Source of the DNA: Yersinia massiliensis CCUG 53443
GTDB lineage: Bacteria > Pseudomonadota > Gammaproteobacteria > Enterobacterales > Enterobacteriaceae
Reading direction: 5' to 3'
Assembly (NCBI RefSeq): GCF_000312485.1
Contig: NZ_HE997643.1
Coordinates: forward strand, 5,392-48,466
DNA: 43,075 nucleotides
Position 1 is the stretch's first letter. Each line of letters begins with the position of its first letter. The position numbers and the translations under genes were made by a program. Of the stretch, positions 1,743 through 37,966 are shown one piece after another. The notes under the pieces were generated by a model, which was not told the DNA's origin, did no database searches, and saw nothing but the letters and a program-made list of their open reading frames with translations.

Positions 1743-1937
1743 TCATGCGGGGCTAATCTTCCCATCGACCGGATCGCGCTCGGTGGTACGTCGCATTTGT
1801 GCGTAGGGGGATGACAGAGATTCTGTGACCTTCCGACTTTCTCTATTGTTAAATAAGCAGCCTGTCGTCCTGACTGGCGCGGCGAGTAGTTCCGTCGTCC
1901 GCATCGATGTTTCGTTTCGATGGCTAAAGAATACCAT
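1743..1937 (-). CDS. Doubtful 64-aa reading frame at the start of the PL transcript
   Basis: The open frame runs from an ATG at 1937, or an internal ATG near residue 12, to 1743. Neither start has a ribosome site. The first ATG lies inside one of the OL operators (1929-1945) and would be almost at the 5-prime end of a PL transcript. The translation is rich in Arg, Thr and Ser and has no recognised domain. Some prophages carry Ash-like small proteins in this place, but I cannot establish similarity. The alternative is an untranslated leader, which I find about as likely. Confidence 0.28.
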   Translation of the reverse strand: MVFFSHRNETSMRTTELLAAPVRTTGCLFNNRESRKVTESLSSPYAQMRRTTERDPVDGKISPA

Positions 1938-1998
1938 TGATATTTAATATGTAAATACCCAAGGTATTTTAAAATGAAAAAGAATATTTTAGGTATTG
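1929..1998. promoter_or_regulatory. Left operator OL (three 17-bp repressor sites) and PL
   Basis: Three related 17-bp sites are visible: GAATACCATTGATATTT (1929-1945), the perfect palindrome AAATACCCAAGGTATTT (1953-1969), and GAATATTTTAGGTATTG (1982-1998). Centres are 24 and 29 bp apart. The same half-site (AAATACC) is used three times in the right operator at 4737-4801. On the reverse strand a weak promoter can be drawn with -35 TTTTCA, a 17-bp spacer and -10 TATTTA overlapping the middle operator. That would start leftward transcription near 1945. CI is expected to repress PL here. Confidence 0.8.
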
Positions 1999-2104: not shown

Positions 2105-2314
2105 ATGAACTACGAAGAGCAAGCACAAATTCGATATCAAGAAATGTGCCGTATAGTTGGCGATGTGGTATTCGCTATGGTGGCAGAAGGTCATGAGACT
2201 AAAAGAGTGGCTATAGCCGATGTGATTCGAACGGAGCTAGCGAAAGGATTAGATAAGTGGGATGACGATCAGTTGCGGGTAATGGAACTGGCGGTTAAGC
2301 TGCTGGAAGAGTGA
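2105..2314 (+). CDS. Small helical protein, possibly AriR/YmgB-like
   Basis: The preferred start is the ATG at 2105, which follows GGAGGTAGGT; an upstream in-frame ATG at 2027 has no ribosome site. The 69-residue protein is helical and acidic (MNYEEQAQIRYQEMCRIVG at the start). Its pattern of two amphipathic helices separated by a short loop resembles the small dimeric AriR/YmgB connector proteins found in lambdoid prophages, but similarity is weak and unverified. It is read rightward between OL and the terminator of the cI operon, so it runs towards the kinase/DUF3037 genes and away from PL. Confidence 0.55.
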   Translation: MNYEEQAQIRYQEMCRIVGDVVFAMVAEGHETKRVAIADVIRTELAKGLDKWDDDQLRVMELAVKLLEE

Positions 2315-2334
2315 GATTGTCAGATTGCAGGCAC

Positions 2335-2360
2335 AAAAAACCCGGCAGCGGGGCCGGGTT
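2335..2360 (-). terminator. Rho-independent terminator of the cI-kinase-DUF3037 operon
   Basis: On the reverse strand the stem GCCGGG pairs with CCCGGC (genome 2353-2358 with 2341-2346), followed by a run of six T (2340-2335). It lies five bases beyond the end of the DUF3037 gene. The forward strand has the stem but only two T, so it terminates leftward transcription best. Confidence 0.85.
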
Positions 2361-2365
2361 GTGCG

Positions 2366-3184
2366 TCACAAAGAGGCTTTAGCAAACTCAATTATTGATT
2401 TTTCATCATCATGCCTAAAGTGCATAATATGATTGTTATCAAAAGTTTTTCTAATTTCGCTCATTGCTTTTGCTTCAGAAATTGATGGGCTTTTATGTCC
2501 ATCAATAGTGAAAAGCACACTTGATAAATTTAGTAAGTTCTCTGCGGCAGCCCTGCTAACGCGTGCCACCCATGAATCGCAATGCTCCATCATTTTCCCT
2601 GGCTCTTTTTGTACAAACGCCAGTGGCTTAATGGCACAAAGGACTTCATCTTCATTCTTTGCAACGAATGGCATACTGAATCTAGTTAAATCTCCACCAA
2701 AGGTTTCTTTTTTAAATGCGTGTCTTAGTTCAGCATGAGCATTTAATCTACGCTTTAGTTCTTTCGCAAGTATCTCTTCTCTTCGTTCTTTGCTGTAATC
2801 AGAATGATTTACGAACTGATTATAAATCCTAACAATCTCACTTTCTGGATTATCAGCCAGAACAACCCTAGTTGAACTAAAGTGAAAAATAGATTCCCGC
2901 CTTGCAGTTAAGTAATTGAAAAAATTAGCTAGTTCTTCGGATGTGCGGAATCTATGGCTTTGTTCTTGTGCATATTTTAATTCCCTTGCGACGGCATCTT
3001 TAGCTAAAGGGAAAATTGTATCATCCCTAAAAAATGCCGTAACTCTAGCATCATTGCTTTGAGTAAGCATGAAGTGAAAGGTTCGCTTTTTGGGGGCGCA
3101 CATGACTACACCAATGTTCGCAAACTCTTCAGTTTCTGCGAATGGTGCGTATCTCACTATGCTATATAGGCATGGTGTGCTCAT
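2366..3184 (-). CDS. DUF3037 protein, partner of HipA-like kinase
   Basis: This 272-residue protein starts MSTPCLYSIVRYAPFAETEE. The motif YSIVRYAP...EFANIGVVM in the first 30 residues is typical of DUF3037, whose members commonly sit beside HipA-like kinases. The ATG at 3184 overlaps the TGA of the kinase gene as ATGA and has TTGGAG nine bases upstream; a TTG start at 3199 is less likely. The overlap implies translational coupling and joint action. No enzymatic motif is evident; a charged middle (residues 125-160, many Arg, Lys and Glu) could contact nucleic acid or protein. DUF3037 has no function I know of, so a role as regulator, substrate or antidote of the kinase is inference. Confidence 0.8.
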   Translation of the reverse strand: MSTPCLYSIVRYAPFAETEEFANIGVVMCAPKKRTFHFMLTQSNDARVTAFFRDDTIFPLAKDAVARELKYAQEQSHRFRTSEELANFFNYLTARRESIFHFSSTRVVLADNPESEIVRIYNQFVNHSDYSKERREEILAKELKRRLNAHAELRHAFKKETFGGDLTRFSMPFVAKNEDEVLCAIKPLAFVQKEPGKMMEHCDSWVARVSRAAAENLLNLSSVLFTIDGHKSPSISEAKAMSEIRKTFDNNHIMHFRHDDEKSIIEFAKASL

Positions 3185-3921
3185 GTTATCTGGCTCCAAA
3201 AAACGTCATTCGATGCACGTGCTAAAGTATCTTCTATGTATGAGATAAAAAGATCGTTCTCATCTGGCTCTTCAAGTTTCCACTCTTCGGGAATTTCTGC
3301 AATGCATTCAGCTAGAATATTTCTGGCTAGCTCGATTTCATCCTCGCACTCTTGCCGATCTACGATATCAAAAATCCAACTTCTGTGTTGTGGACTATAA
3401 ACATGCATTTTTACATCAGCCTCAGCTTCATCATGATCGAAGGCGAGGTTATGGTCAATTAAGTAATGCCTACTGTTAAAATAGTCAAAGATAATGTTGA
3501 TATTTCCCCCGCGAGCGGACAGGGTTCTATCGGAGTTTTTTATCCATCTATCAAAAAGATATATTCTTTTTTGATGTGGTGTTTCAACACTAGAATGCGC
3601 TTGTTGTAACGTAATGGCCCCAGCCCCAGAAATAAACTTCGTTGCAAAAGCGTAGCCGGGGCTTAACTCGCCTTTCAGGTCTGGTACGAACTCAACTAAT
3701 GATTGATCTACTTCTACAATTTTAAAGTCAGGAATTGATAACCCTAGTGCTTTTGCTAAACATCCTGCTATCCATTCAGCCATTAGCTCTTTTCTTGGCA
3801 GATTAGGCATACCCTTTACAACATAGAGTTCCCCATCCTCACATTTGCATAAGAAAGGGCGCGTAGAACCCTCAGGGATTCGCCTCACAAATTCTTTTAC
3901 CTTTAGTATCCGATTATCCAT
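3181..3921 (-). CDS. HipA-like protein kinase (246 aa) in the rex position
   Basis: The protein keeps the key residues of the short HipA-like kinase family. These are a nucleotide-binding lysine (ELYVVKG, K36), a catalytic loop FDRWIKNSDRT (D131) with GGNIN (N140 or N142), and a metal-binding IDHNLAF (D156). It lacks the N-terminal extension of full-length HipA (about 440 residues), as expected for the compact family. It lies 82 bp downstream of cI on the same strand, overlaps the DUF3037 gene, and is followed by a terminator, so it is probably transcribed with cI from PRM and PRE and expressed in lysogens. The start at 3921 has only a weak ribosome site. Likely a Ser/Thr kinase; the target is unknown. 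A defence or growth-control role is inferred from position. Confidence 0.8.
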   Translation of the reverse strand: MDNRILKVKEFVRRIPEGSTRPFLCKCEDGELYVVKGMPNLPRKELMAEWIAGCLAKALGLSIPDFKIVEVDQSLVEFVPDLKGELSPGYAFATKFISGAGAITLQQAHSSVETPHQKRIYLFDRWIKNSDRTLSARGGNINIIFDYFNSRHYLIDHNLAFDHDEAEADVKMHVYSPQHRSWIFDIVDRQECEDEIELARNILAECIAEIPEEWKLEEPDENDLFISYIEDTLARASNDVFWSQIT

Positions 3922-4003
3922 GGTGTAAAGGCAGTCCTTGTTGTTATCTAACTTTTATACGCCGGTTGGAGTTTACCCACCCTAGCAGTGGGTTAGCCGT
4001 GGG

Positions 4004-4726
4004 TTAGTTGAATGTATCTTCGGGCCACTGTGCTTTAACCACTTTCCCAATAATCCGACAGTTCTCGTCAAATCGTATACTTTGATATCTAGGATTATTA
4101 TTTAGCGGCTCAAGCCAGCGATAACCGTCATCCCATGTAAACTTCTTGAATGTGACCTCAGTATCGTTATGGATACCAGCAACACAGAAATCGCCATAAG
4201 TCACATCTTCTTTTGGATCCACCAAAATCAACATTCCCTCAGGAAAGCTAGGCTTAAAGCCATGAGGTGCGGTCATTGAGTGTCCGGAAACCTCAAGCCA
4301 GAACGCTAAGTCGCTAGCTTTCTTCGTGGTACTAATCCAATCTTTTGCATCTTTCTCTGTATATGAACCCACGGCAGAAAAGTTTCCTGCCTGAACGGTA
4401 GAGAATAATGGGTACGTGTAGGCGAGGATTATCGGACGTTGTGGATCTTCGGTATTTGAAGCTGCATAGTCAGAAATCTCTCTTGCAATCGATGGACTAA
4501 AATCAGATATGGATACCTGCAAGGCTTTTGCAAACACCGATGCTATCGGCGCGTTAAGTGCATTCCTACCATTAAGGTAATGCCCCACAGCACCTTGTGA
4601 TATTCCTAGGTCATCAGCAATCGTATACTGAGTAATTCCCAAGGATTTTTTCTTTGACTCATACAAAGCCTTTAGCCGCTTAGCGTCCTCTAGCTGTTCT
4701 GTCGTCAATTCCTTTCTCTTTTCCAT
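4004..4726 (-). CDS. cI: CI-type repressor with LexA-like autocleavage domain
   Basis: The 240-residue product has an N-terminal helix-turn-helix (about residues 30-55, [20 protein letters not shown]) and a C-terminal S24 peptidase fold. The cleavage dipeptide Ala113-Gly114 is present in STVQAGNF, the nucleophile is Ser150 in SGHSM and the general base Lys is in VTFKK (194/195). This matches lambda CI (A111-G112, S149, K192). It should therefore be cleaved with RecA help after DNA damage. The gene faces away from cro across three operators, and its weak upstream sequence fits a repressor translated poorly from PRM and better from PRE. The kinase and DUF3037 genes follow it. Confidence 0.95.
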
Positions 4727-4736
4727 AATCTCATTG

Positions 4737-4809
4737 TAATAGCGATGGTATTTAGTGCGAAATATCTTAGGTATTGAATATAATAAATACCTGTAGTATT
4801 CTTTTGTTG
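4737..4809. promoter_or_regulatory. Right operator OR with promoters PR and PRM
   Basis: Three 17-bp sites are visible: TAATAGCGATGGTATTT (4737-4753), AAATATCTTAGGTATTG (4760-4776) and AAATACCTGTAGTATTC (4785-4801), with centres 23 and 25 bp apart as in lambda. PR reads rightward with -35 TTGAAT (4774-4779), a 17-bp spacer and -10 TATTCT (4797-4802), inside the cro-proximal operator. PRM reads leftward with -10 TATTAC next to the cI-proximal operator and a poor -35, which fits activation by repressor bound at the middle site. Confidence 0.88.
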
Positions 4810-4830: not shown

Positions 4831-5025
4831 ATGAACAAAATGACTTTGGCTGATTACGCAGAAATTCACGGACAAGCAAAGGCTGCCAGTGATTTTGGCG
4901 TTATTCAGTGTGCAATCAGTAAAGCCATTCGAGCAGGTCGCCACATTGTCGTGACTGTAATGCCTGATGGAAGTGTTAAAGGCGAAGAAGTTCGCCCGTT
5001 CCCAAGCAACAAAAAAGCAGCTTAA
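4831..5025 (+). CDS. cro: Cro repressor, lambda family
   Basis: The 64-residue protein begins MNKMTLADYAEIHGQAKAAS and ends PFPSNKKAA. It matches the layout of lambda Cro ([20 protein letters not shown] ... VKPFPSNKKTT) almost position by position, including the recognition helix region GVIQCAISKAIRAGR. The recognition-helix contacts differ from lambda at two positions (Cys for Ser28, Ser for Asn31), which fits a different operator sequence. GGAG lies seven bases before the ATG at 4831; upstream in-frame starts lie in the operator. It is the first gene of the PR transcript and should repress PRM and lower PR and PL. Confidence 0.93.
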   Translation: MNKMTLADYAEIHGQAKAASDFGVIQCAISKAIRAGRHIVVTVMPDGSVKGEEVRPFPSNKKAA

Positions 5026-35080: not shown

Positions 35081-35929
35081 TTAATGGTTGTATTTACCAT
35101 CTTTCAAGTTGTAGTCAGCAAGCTTTTCAAGTCGCTCGGCAATTTCATCAAGGCGTTTTAGCCGCTCATCGAGGTGTGTGTTTTCGTCGAATTTAGAATT
35201 ACTCCAAAAGTCTTGGCTGACCTTATGGGCTTCTTCAACTAGTTTTTCAACTTCGCTATGGGGCATGGGAGAGATGAGTTTTCTTCTGTTGATGCGAAAT
35301 TGAGAATGTATTGCGACACCGATAACTTTCAAAAATTCAGCTGGGATCATGGGGAATTCAGGATTTAGGGATTTTAAATACACTCGGCCTTGATCTAGTA
35401 TAAATTGTTTAAATGTCGCTTCAGTTTCATCGTTCAGAACACACAAAGCAAAGTCGCCTGAAACAGCTTCAATTGACGAGTCAAAAGTGACAATTGAGCC
35501 ATGAGGAAAGCTAATCCCCTCGCCTGAGGACATAGAATTACCTTGAATTTCAACAGCAAAACAGTTTTCATTGGCCTCTGGTGGGGCAGGTATGAAGTCC
35601 TTTACTGCTGCTGTTTTTAGTAGCTCATCCAATGTTTCGAACCTTGATTGTACATGAGTAAGCACAGGAATTTCACGAACTGTTACAGTGCGCTTAACGT
35701 TACTCACATCTGGCCCGTTGCCTTTTCCCATTGTCAACCAATCTGTTGTAGTCCCCAAGGCGGCAGCAAGGTTTTGAAGCACTTTTAACCTAGGCTTTGC
35801 TTCTCCCCCCTCATAGGCAGCGATCTGCCTAGGTACAATTCCAACTCTGCGAGCTAATTCGGATTGCGTTAGACCAAGTGAGGTGCGCGCTATTGCGACG
35901 CGCTTATAGAAAGAATCATCAAAACTCAT
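35081..35929 (-). CDS. Second phage repressor (HTH plus S24 fold) lacking the Ala-Gly cleavage site
   Basis: The preferred start is the ATG at 35929 with AAGGTG upstream (282 residues). Residues 8-40 form a clear XRE helix-turn-helix (TQSELARRVGIVPRQIAAYE). The C-terminal fold keeps the S24 residues Ser132 (IQGNSM) and Lys174 (ATFKQF). The expected cleavage region reads LTHVQSRFETL (90-100) where cleavable repressors have VQAG, so the scissile Ala-Gly is Ser-Arg. A 65-residue charged extension (218-282) with a heptad-like HLDERLKRLDEIAERLEKLA is added. It faces an Arc-like gene across an operator region. It should repress this local switch and be relieved by antirepressor rather than by RecA. 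Confidence 0.85.
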   Translation of the reverse strand: MSFDDSFYKRVAIARTSLGLTQSELARRVGIVPRQIAAYEGGEAKPRLKVLQNLAAALGTTTDWLTMGKGNGPDVSNVKRTVTVREIPVLTHVQSRFETLDELLKTAAVKDFIPAPPEANENCFAVEIQGNSMSSGEGISFPHGSIVTFDSSIEAVSGDFALCVLNDETEATFKQFILDQGRVYLKSLNPEFPMIPAEFLKVIGVAIHSQFRINRRKLISPMPHSEVEKLVEEAHKVSQDFWSNSKFDENTHLDERLKRLDEIAERLEKLADYNLKDGKYNH

Positions 35930-35947
35930 ATATGCACCTTTAAAATT

Positions 35948-36016
35948 CATTGACTCTATAAAAAGATCTGGTGCATACTTGCTCATGCAGTATGAACCAT
36001 TGAGTCTATAAAACAC
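35948..36016. promoter_or_regulatory. Divergent control region of the second immunity module
   Basis: Two direct copies of CATTGA(C/G)TCTATAAAA start at 35948 and 35998. Between them CATACT (35974-35979) and AGTATG (35989-35994) form an inverted repeat. A rightward promoter can be drawn as TTGACT, 18 bp, CATACT. The region separates the leftward repressor from the rightward Arc-like gene and is the likely operator. Confidence 0.65.
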
Positions 36017-36028
36017 ATGAGGTGAATA

Positions 36029-36202
36029 ATGGCTGATTCAAAAGCTAACAGCAAGCAGATCTCTTATCGACCTAGACCAGAGGCGCGGGATTTTTTGGAG
36101 AAAAACGCAGAAAAAACCTATCGCTCAGTACAGGGTATGATGGACTACCTGATGGATAGGGTGATTGAGATGGAGAAGAAAGGTGATTTTGTTATCCAGT
36201 AA
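36029..36202 (+). CDS. Arc/Mnt-like ribbon-helix-helix protein (57 aa)
   Basis: The ATG at 36029 follows GAGGTG. The product has an N-terminal strand (KQISYRPRPE, about residues 9-18), helix A (ARDFLEKNAEKT), a turn, and helix B beginning SVQGMMDYLMDRVIEMEKKG. This is the order of P22 Arc (FNLRWPREVLDLVRKVAEEN, then GRSVNSEIYQRVMESFKKEG). It probably dimerises and binds operators upstream of the antirepressor gene, limiting antirepressor synthesis as Arc does in P22 immI. Confidence 0.8.
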   Translation: MADSKANSKQISYRPRPEARDFLEKNAEKTYRSVQGMMDYLMDRVIEMEKKGDFVIQ

Positions 36203-36208
36203 AACGAC

Positions 36209-36240
36209 GAAACCCCATTGGTTGCAGCCGCAGGGGTTTC
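36209..36240 (+). promoter_or_regulatory. Hairpin in the antirepressor leader
   Basis: GAAACCCC (36209-36216) and GGGGTTTC (36233-36240) are perfect inverted repeats around a 16-base loop, between the Arc-like gene and the antirepressor start at 36272. Only a weak T-rich tail (TAATTT) follows, so attenuation or antisense control is as likely as termination. Confidence 0.6.
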
Positions 36241-36271
36241 TAATTTGTCAGTATCTACCAAGGAACTAACA

Positions 36272-37186
36272 ATGAATAGTTTAGCAAAGTCAAACGCAAA
36301 TAACACGCAAACTTCCGCAATATCACAGTTCCATTTTGATGCTCACGCTGTTCGGGTGCTAAGTATCCATAATGAGCCATGGTTCGTTGCTGCTGATTTA
36401 TGCCGAGTGCTCGAATTATCGAACCCAACCAAAGCCATCATGAATTTAGATGATGATGAGAAAGCCCTAACTTCAATTCAGGGCTTAAGTCGTGGTAATG
36501 AAGAGGCCAATATAGTAAGCGAGTCAGGAATGTATACACTGATACTCCGCTGCCGTGATGCTGTAAAGCCGGGAACCATACCTCACCGAGTAGGCAAGTG
36601 GGTCACTGCCGAAGTTCTTCCCGCGATTCGTAAAACAGGAAGCTATGAAAGTCCACGTAAGTCCACCAAGAAAGCATTGCCCGGTAAAATCACCATCGAA
36701 CAGCAGGAAGCGATTAAACAGTTGGTAATGAATCGCGGCAAGGCTTTGCCAAAAGAGAACCAAGCCAAAGCCATGATCACTATGTGGTCAGCATTGAAAA
36801 CTCACTTTGGTTGCAGTTACAAAGAAATTAATGAAGACCAGTTCACGGAAGCTCTCTCACTGGCAGCGCGAGTTCCTATTGAGGGTGAATTCATCGGCAA
36901 GCAGGAAGCACTACCAGCACCGAAAATATCCTACCCAATGTCATGGTTCGATAGTTACCGGTGGATTATAGGTGAGCGCGCACTAAGTTCACCATGGGAG
37001 TATCCGGCTAATATGCTCACTCCCGATGCTGATTACCCTAACCCATGCGGACGGCTACTTGATGATATGAAGAAGGCTGGATATGAAGTCGACGCCGCAT
37101 TGTTTCACCTACTCTCTTTACAACACCATGTTCAAATGTTGCGTCACAAGGTTCGGGCTGTAGAAAGAGCCGTTGGATGCCACTAA
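36272..37186 (+). CDS. Antirepressor with BRO-N domain
   Basis: The 304-residue protein starts at the ATG at 36272 with AAGGA upstream; the longer frame is not supported. The BRO-N domain covers about residues 18-125 (FDAHAVRVLSIHNEPWFVAA, DLCRVLELSNPTKAI, SESGMYTLILRCRDA, HRVGKWVTAEVLPAIRKTGS). A linker with KITIEQQEAIKQLVMNRGKA and a C-terminal ORF-specific domain with a helical end follow. Such proteins bind phage repressors or DNA. Lying after the second repressor and the Arc-like gene, it matches P22 ant in place. Confidence 0.87.
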   Translation: MNSLAKSNANNTQTSAISQFHFDAHAVRVLSIHNEPWFVAADLCRVLELSNPTKAIMNLDDDEKALTSIQGLSRGNEEANIVSESGMYTLILRCRDAVKPGTIPHRVGKWVTAEVLPAIRKTGSYESPRKSTKKALPGKITIEQQEAIKQLVMNRGKALPKENQAKAMITMWSALKTHFGCSYKEINEDQFTEALSLAARVPIEGEFIGKQEALPAPKISYPMSWFDSYRWIIGERALSSPWEYPANMLTPDADYPNPCGRLLDDMKKAGYEVDAALFHLLSLQHHVQMLRHKVRAVERAVGCH

Positions 37187-37213
37187 CTTTGCCGGAACAC
37201 AGGCAATAAAAAA

Positions 37214-37233
37214 CCGCCAGTTAGCGCTGGCGG
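37214..37233. terminator. GC-rich hairpin between antirepressor and Rha genes
   Basis: CCGCCAG (37214-37220) and CTGGCGG (37227-37233) form a seven-bp stem. Forward transcripts have no T-run after it; on the reverse strand six T follow (37213-37208), so it could terminate antisense transcripts or serve as a leader structure for the next gene. Confidence 0.5.
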
Positions 37234-37261
37234 CTCAATAAACTAAACCGTGTGAGGTTTT

Positions 37262-37966
37262 ATGTCTGCATTAACTTTAGCAAATGGTAGATCTGATGTC
37301 ACGAAAATGTCTAGCCGAGAGATTGCGACTCTTACTGGTAAGCAACATAAAGATGTGCTGCACGACTGCCGCAAAATGTTCGAAGCGCTTAATATTCAAT
37401 CGGCGGACTTTTCCGCCGATTACACGGATGCAAAAGGGCGCGTATATCAGGAATATCTTCTCGATGAAGATTTAACCATGACACTGATCACCGGCTACAG
37501 CATTCCACTCCGCCACAAAGTATCAAAACGCTGGCGTGAACTGGAAACTGGCAAGGCGCTTCCTGCAAAAAGTTCATCAGGGCTGCCTGAGTATCGCAGG
37601 GCGAGAACGCTGAAAATGTCAGTTGAAGCAGTTCATCAGCTTTTCGACATGATGCCAAACCTTAGTGAGCTGTCTAAACAATGCGCTGCGGCCAACATTA
37701 TTAACCCAGTTGCTGGTTTTGAAGCCATCCCTTTGCCAAAGCTGGAAGAACATTTCTACACCGCCGGTCAGGTTGGCGAGATGCTTGGTATTTCTGCTCA
37801 AAAAATCGGCCGTATATCTAACGCCAATAACCTCAAGACTGACCAGTACGGTATTTATGTAATGGATAAGTCTGCGTATAGCAGCAAGCAAGTTGAGGCG
37901 TTCCGATACAACGCTAACGGGGTAGAAGCTCTGCGCCACCTGATCCACGGTGCTGATGTAGCTTAA
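37262..37966 (+). CDS. Rha-family phage regulatory protein
   Basis: The 234-residue protein has the pRha N-domain in residues 14-95 (MSSREIATLTGKQHKDVLHD, GRVYQEYLLDEDLTMTLITG, YSIPLRHKVSKRWRELE). A C-terminal part (about 150-234) has a helix-turn-helix-like FYTAGQVGEMLGISAQKIGR. The pattern resembles antirepressor-type proteins with a KilA-C-like end. GAGG precedes the ATG at 37262. In several lambdoid phages Rha blocks growth in hosts lacking IHF. Together with the BRO-N protein it suggests active control of the second repressor. Confidence 0.85.
   Translation: MSALTLANGRSDVTKMSSREIATLTGKQHKDVLHDCRKMFEALNIQSADFSADYTDAKGRVYQEYLLDEDLTMTLITGYSIPLRHKVSKRWRELETGKALPAKSSSGLPEYRRARTLKMSVEAVHQLFDMMPNLSELSKQCAAANIINPVAGFEAIPLPKLEEHFYTAGQVGEMLGISAQKIGRISNANNLKTDQYGIYVMDKSAYSSKQVEAFRYNANGVEALRHLIHGADVA

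Follow-up and report, generated by a model that had tools for sequence, protein, structure and literature searches.

Pairs of a HipA-like kinase and a DUF3037 protein are already described as antiphage systems. According to the excerpted text of PMC13092281, DS-6, there renamed HipAD with credit to Brenes and Laub 2025, defends against phage and loses this defence when the kinase carries a catalytic mutation, with a toxin–antitoxin mode of action put forward by its authors as a hypothesis. The excerpts of PMC12548924 describe a HipA/DUF3037 pair linked to Retron-Sda1 that defends against phage Bas51 without the retron RT or ncRNA; within that operon, deleting HipA abolishes defence and deleting DUF3037 is toxic. 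This retron paper is also the full-text match for the PADLOC candidate system PDC-M66, and in a full-text literature search for HipAD only PMC13092281 concerned phage defence by its title. GenBank record PV340545 (phage PhiR5_1), which we infer belongs to Brenes and Laub 2025, annotates the order cI, HipA toxin, HipD antitoxin, Kil, Gam, Bet.

The place immediately behind a lambdoid repressor gene has its own history. RexAB, the 933W kinase and Hex are all products of the repressor's transcript, as summarized in the passages of PMC3564112 that treat them: 933W Stk, a kinase expressed on the cI transcript, aborts HK97 superinfection, and Hex, encoded on the PRM transcript of the 434 repressor, lowers cleavage of that repressor. 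The excerpts of PMC8585504 locate bstA and rexAB in the cI slot and cite the region from cI to n as a hotspot of mosaic diversity, and those of PMC12894663 describe RexA as a sensor and RexB as an ion channel.

We analysed a window of 43,075 nucleotides from Yersinia massiliensis CCUG 53443, in which a kinase–DUF3037 pair lies between cI and the left operator. The features of the region are as follows.

1928..1955, minus strand: PL-like promoter, TTTACA-16-TATTCT with TG, overlapping OL (consensus match only)
1930..1997, no strand assigned: OL, three operator-like 15-mers at 1930-1944, 1954-1968 and 1983-1997 (repeats and consensus score)
2105..2314, plus strand: DUF2767 ORF (PF10965, 2.5e-34), with a possible longer start at 2027 (ORF and Pfam)
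2339..2360, minus strand: intrinsic terminator at the end of the cI-hipA-hipD unit (consensus scan and folding)
2366..3184, minus strand: hipD, DUF3037 protein (PF11236), 272 aa, PADLOC PDC-M66B (ORF, Pfam, PADLOC)
3181..3921, minus strand: hipA, HipA_2 kinase (PF20613), 246 aa, PADLOC PDC-M66A (ORF, Pfam, PADLOC, alignment)
3922..4003, minus strand: cI-hipA gap, 82 bp (site scan and hairpin shuffles)
4004..4726, minus strand: cI repressor (HTH_3 and Peptidase_S24), 240 aa (ORF and Pfam, 81 bits)
4733..4761, minus strand: PRM-like promoter, TTCGCA-17-TACAAT, giving a near-leaderless cI start (consensus match only)
4738..4800, no strand assigned: OR, three operator-like 15-mers at 4738-4752, 4761-4775 and 4786-4800 (repeats and consensus score)
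4831..5025, plus strand: cro (PF09048), divergent from cI (Pfam)

The sequence-only reading of this DNA had described a single-strand unit of cI, a HipA-like kinase and DUF3037, with the last two genes overlapping as ATGA and a terminator ahead of OL; ORFs, Pfam and folding bear this out. The overlap lies at 3184-3181, and none of 200 shuffles of the terminator stretch (2375-2325) folds as well as the native sequence (z -3.4), even though the consensus scan finds no excess of terminator-like sites in the region (2 versus 3.0 in shuffles). Promoter-like sites likewise occur at chance level (7 versus 7.3), the PRM-like promoter among them ending six bases 5' of the cI ATG. Between the terminator and OL sits the DUF2767 ORF, convergent with hipD. 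A separate promoter or terminator for hipA was considered and dropped: the consensus scan lists neither type of site in the 82-bp gap, and hairpins there are no better than in shuffles. A weak promoter inside the gap is possible. The anatomy fits co-transcription of hipA and hipD with cI from PRM, as we infer. The six operator-like 15-mers form two clusters of three (1930, 1954, 1983 and 4738, 4761, 4786) and score 10-12 of 12 against AATACCNNNGGTATT, a score that is partly circular because the consensus was drawn from these same sites, although the repeats were initially detected without it; outside both clusters, just two sites in the window reach a score of 10.

The kinase matches HipA_2 (PF20613) at 285.8 bits against a cut-off of 27, over profile positions 1-240 of 240, and its partner matches DUF3037 (PF11236) at 81.3 bits against a cut-off of 22.6. 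PADLOC assigns them to M66A (1.1e-18) and M66B (3.3e-15) of PDC-M66, and the two genes are adjacent on one strand, the gene arrangement that defines HipAD and PDC-M66. Residues K36, D131, N140, N142 and D156, which the sequence-only reading had singled out and which are taken here to be catalytic, are invariant across an alignment of 25 kinases made up of the window's own and others that are 44-98% identical to it (rows were hand-picked, with near-duplicates and a broken copy omitted). Measured against the nearest relative, the contig L037, hipA gives a dN/dS of 0.03 and hipD one of 0.05, and between the relatives L033 and L034 the ratios are 0.11 and 0.05, values being obtained for five of eight comparisons, one of them on a saturated dS (4.3). 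Searches against solved structures gave no sequence match for the kinase profile, and for HipD just gamma-tubulin-complex matches (best E 0.06) that we take as chance.

The two protein families also travel together across a sample of 295 genomes from the bacterial family to which the window belongs. HipA_2 matches occur in 15, and by coordinates DUF3037 adjoins HipA_2 in eight of the eight strong matches (>190 bits) and in three of the seven weak ones. Four of the 15 HipA_2 genomes, all weak, have no DUF3037 match, and five of the 16 DUF3037 genomes, all below the cut-off, have no HipA_2 match. In two other loci (L078, 2123-3001, and L083, 2147-3025) a weak HipA_2 kinase is followed by a protein of 292 aa, which in L078 matches no Pfam family; it is possible, judging from the gene arrangement, that this protein is a different partner for the kinase family.

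By these matches the window pair is HipAD, a diverged, well-preserved addition to an established defence system, with the same two families in the same gene order. It shares with PhiR5_1 the 4-base hipA/hipD overlap and the slot directly 3' of cI; the repressors differ, and identity is 48% for the kinase and 56% for HipD, so that activity and phage range may differ. Matches turn up in only three of 50,697 phage records, and kinase and HipD hit the same three; two of these carry no annotation and the third is PhiR5_1. DS-6B is described in the excerpts of PMC13092281 with DUF3037 and DUF1829, whereas in Pfam the HipD of both the window and PhiR5_1 has DUF3037 and no DUF1829. The Retron-Sda1 pair, in which the kinase is required for defence and DUF3037 is required against toxicity, is linked in the excerpted account to a retron and to no repressor operon. 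The earlier proposal of an exclusion or growth-control system with a kinase effector and DUF3037 as antidote thus agrees with what the excerpts of PMC13092281 and PMC12548924 report for relatives, and would apply here by analogy. Its suggestion that the pair was undescribed does not stand, as the pair is already PDC-M66 and DS-6/HipAD and is annotated directly 3' of cI in PV340545.

The comparison with RexAB is one of position. Lambda has cI, a 112-bp gap, rexA, rexB and OL, the order seen in the window. The ORFs and operators place the pair where the sequence-only reading put it: two genes on the repressor strand between cI and OL, behind a gap of 82 bp instead of 112 bp. The window pair is a kinase and a likely antidote, in contrast to the sensor and ion channel described, in excerpt, for RexA and RexB. 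Homology to RexAB was ruled out, with no Rex family found in Pfam, PHROGs or NCBIfam at E up to 0.1. What likens the window kinase to 933W Stk is its presumed expression on the cI transcript of a lambdoid prophage; Stk, however, is a eukaryotic-like tyrosine kinase described as a single gene, whereas the window kinase is HipA_2. Pfam finds HipA_2 and a sub-threshold HipA_C in it and no eukaryotic-like kinase domain, and NCBIfam just a sub-threshold Bud32 (14.7 bits versus 174). HipBA of E. coli K-12 likewise combines a HipA-like kinase toxin with an adjoining antidote gene (a likely antidote in the window), but there hipB precedes the kinase gene, which leads in the window, and HipA has 440 aa compared with 246 aa. 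Profile–profile comparison with K-12 HipA is weak, aligning 25 columns at a probability of 14%; HipA_C scores 13.2 bits in Pfam against a cut-off of 30.5; and HipD has no Pfam family besides DUF3037 and no NCBIfam match at all, hence no HipB-type HTH partner. Classical HipBA was ruled out, as both partner family and kinase differ.

The sequence-only reading had proposed a search of prophages for such pairs in the cI slot. Two viral-contig scans and three phage records yielded 36 contigs that carry the whole pair or a portion of it, among them the window's own; this number includes near-duplicates (such as L030/L031 and L047/L049) and partial loci (L023 with hipD only, L015 ending after hipA, L002 with its kinase in two frames), and the scans favour close relatives because the queries were short peptides from both window proteins, matched exactly. 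The pair lies 3' of a phage repressor in 28 of the 36, and these 28 repressors fall into six clusters at 40% identity. The upstream neighbour was defined as the longest ORF on the same strand that measures 280 bases or more and ends no more than 900 bases from hipA; by this rule the repressor is that ORF in 26 of the 36, and in L015 and L037 it lies one or two ORFs higher. Among 30 scanned upstream ORFs, 27 are repressors, 22 of these with an S24 domain; counting L037, S24 is present in 23 of the 28 repressors, and the remaining five are HTH proteins without S24.

In the other eight contigs hipD, accompanied by hipA in seven, lies 3' of a dinI-like gene, so the link to cI is not essential. Copies in the dinI slot are those of L018, L023-L026, L028, L029, L051 and L084 (hipD alone in L023). 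An annotated E. coli copy of this kind is flanked by tail-fibre genes plus an invertase and, on its opposite side, by dinI together with a gene for a DNA polymerase V subunit. An exact LexA-type box lies just 5' of dinI in L018, L026 and L084, and the exact scan finds none in L023, L024, L025 or L051; L028 begins at dinI, and L029 was left out of the scan. One extra exact match falls inside the cI of L001.

Among 18 loci from named genomes, a repressor lies upstream by profile in six (L054, L056, L057, L058, L060, L063), using an A1 profile that contained three non-repressor ORFs and counting for L060 a short ORF with a weak match; a repressor-like ORF, judged by eye, is upstream in L061, dinI in L052 and L053, and the remaining loci are elsewhere or broken. 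Pairs outside repressor operons also occur in Rhodanobacter contigs and on plasmids. Mapped onto a HipD tree built from 41 selected rows, the dinI label requires two changes, also forced by the starred branches, and the cI label six, at least three of them forced; the tree was made by a quick method and has supports from a single test and long-branch warnings, its slot labels were set by hand, and near-duplicates and copies without full HipD were omitted. Separately, L079 (1339-2975) in the window's family carries a very distantly related HipA_2/DUF3037 pair (27.1 and 28.5 bits) immediately 3' of an S24 cI, so the slot has probably been filled more than once.

L037 is 95% identical to window positions 3982-2322, that is, from 61 bp 5' of hipA through the terminator, and over the rest of the 12 kb compared has only four short matches of 33-72 bases. 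In E. coli, hipAD of the PhiR5_1 type is present in 283 of 5,426 genomes, in 282 at 99% identity or more; the window's own pair matches 288 E. coli genomes at 60-80% identity, just 3 of them over most of the pair. A query of cI plus the pair is at least 80% covered in 283 E. coli genomes, and 2,192 genomes match at least a portion of that query. Seven partial matches were listed and five read in detail; three of these five strains have a cI with the same accession as that of a hipAD-carrying strain and nothing annotated before the cell-division-inhibitor gene. By BLAST, the junctions of the E. coli cassette lie within 1 base of the cI end and within 2 bases of the terminator stem, and the terminator at 2339..2360, whose E. 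coli counterpart forms the right edge of the exchanged cassette, is within the stretch common to L037. These alignments show a cassette that is swapped in E. coli, from the cI stop codon to a common terminator. One and the same E. coli cI protein is followed by hipAD, by nothing or by other cargo.

Behind that same E. coli cI protein, the slot of L090 (4338-5057) holds two small hypothetical ORFs, and behind a sibling repressor that of L091 (4034-5436) holds a DUF6932 gene and a hypothetical gene; these are candidate further exclusion systems. Elsewhere in the window's own genome (L008, G000:C1:1951887-1951925), 39 bases match the terminator region of the window (2322-2360) at 97% identity, with more short matches within 2.6 kb of this terminator-like stretch, perhaps marking another prophage with the same terminator. 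The tail region of the window (35081-37966) encodes a second repressor (minus strand, phrog_4, 311 aa) and antirepressor genes at 36218-37186 and 37262-37966 (both plus strand), a group that resembles a second immunity locus, of the immI kind.

We consider it highly probable that the pair is a HipAD anti-phage module of toxin–antitoxin type carried as cargo of a lambdoid prophage repressor operon, a defence or growth-control function being the preferred reading in view of what relatives have been shown to do. Going by the anatomy, cI in a lysogen would shut PR and PL and drive PRM, and read-through past cI would yield the kinase and HipD before the terminator closes the transcript. HipD, by analogy with DS-6 and Retron-Sda1, would bind HipA and hold it in check; infection by a second phage might disturb this restraint, and the freed kinase could then phosphorylate a target, blocking phage growth or arresting the cell. 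As the comparisons show, the cassette is not bound to one repressor, being exchanged from cI end to terminator and seen at times behind a dinI-like gene, where the LexA-type box of some copies suggests SOS control.

Such a module could instead serve prophage maintenance or growth control, punishing loss of the prophage or of cI, with defence as a side effect. Relatives do act as toxin and antidote (excerpts of PMC12548924; proposed in those of PMC13092281), loss of cI would be expected to lower expression of the pair, and HipD relatives are found on plasmids too (20 of 72,556 records). We nevertheless regard this as unlikely: the same excerpts report that two relatives protect against phages, the slot is known for exclusion genes (excerpts of PMC3564112 and PMC8585504), and HipD is kept without an intact kinase in the prophages L023 and L002, although L021 keeps a kinase with a short HipD.

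Quite unlikely, in our estimate, is that HipAD on the cI transcript guards the repressor state. Silencing of PRM would then stop the supply of HipD and free the kinase, so that the prophage would sense an attack on its own repressor, and the dinI copies would be wired to SOS instead. If so, the silencer could be, for example, an antirepressor of an invader or of the window's own second immunity locus, and one effector would have two triggers set by its position.

An accessory role in lysogeny stability, in which the kinase or HipD would modulate cI, RecA or induction, has a precedent in the PRM-encoded Hex of 434 (excerpts of PMC3564112); the cassette accompanies six repressor clusters, five of whose 28 members are without S24, and also occurs 3' of dinI without cI, which makes this role very improbable. 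It is scarcely credible that the pair is a decaying moron with no present function, even if the kinase is in two frames in L002 and L067, interrupted by one internal stop in L062 (= L075) and missing from L023, HipD is short in L021 and L068, and L069 is a fragment, since the window's hipA and hipD are intact, with low dN/dS against L037 and invariant catalytic residues.

For the family, the window pair contributes a diverged, well-preserved HipAD to a system of which at least two relatives have been tested in print. The E. coli cI protein that occurs with hipAD, with an empty slot or with other cargo is a natural comparison, through which the idea of an exchangeable slot for exclusion genes would become testable in near-isogenic prophages.
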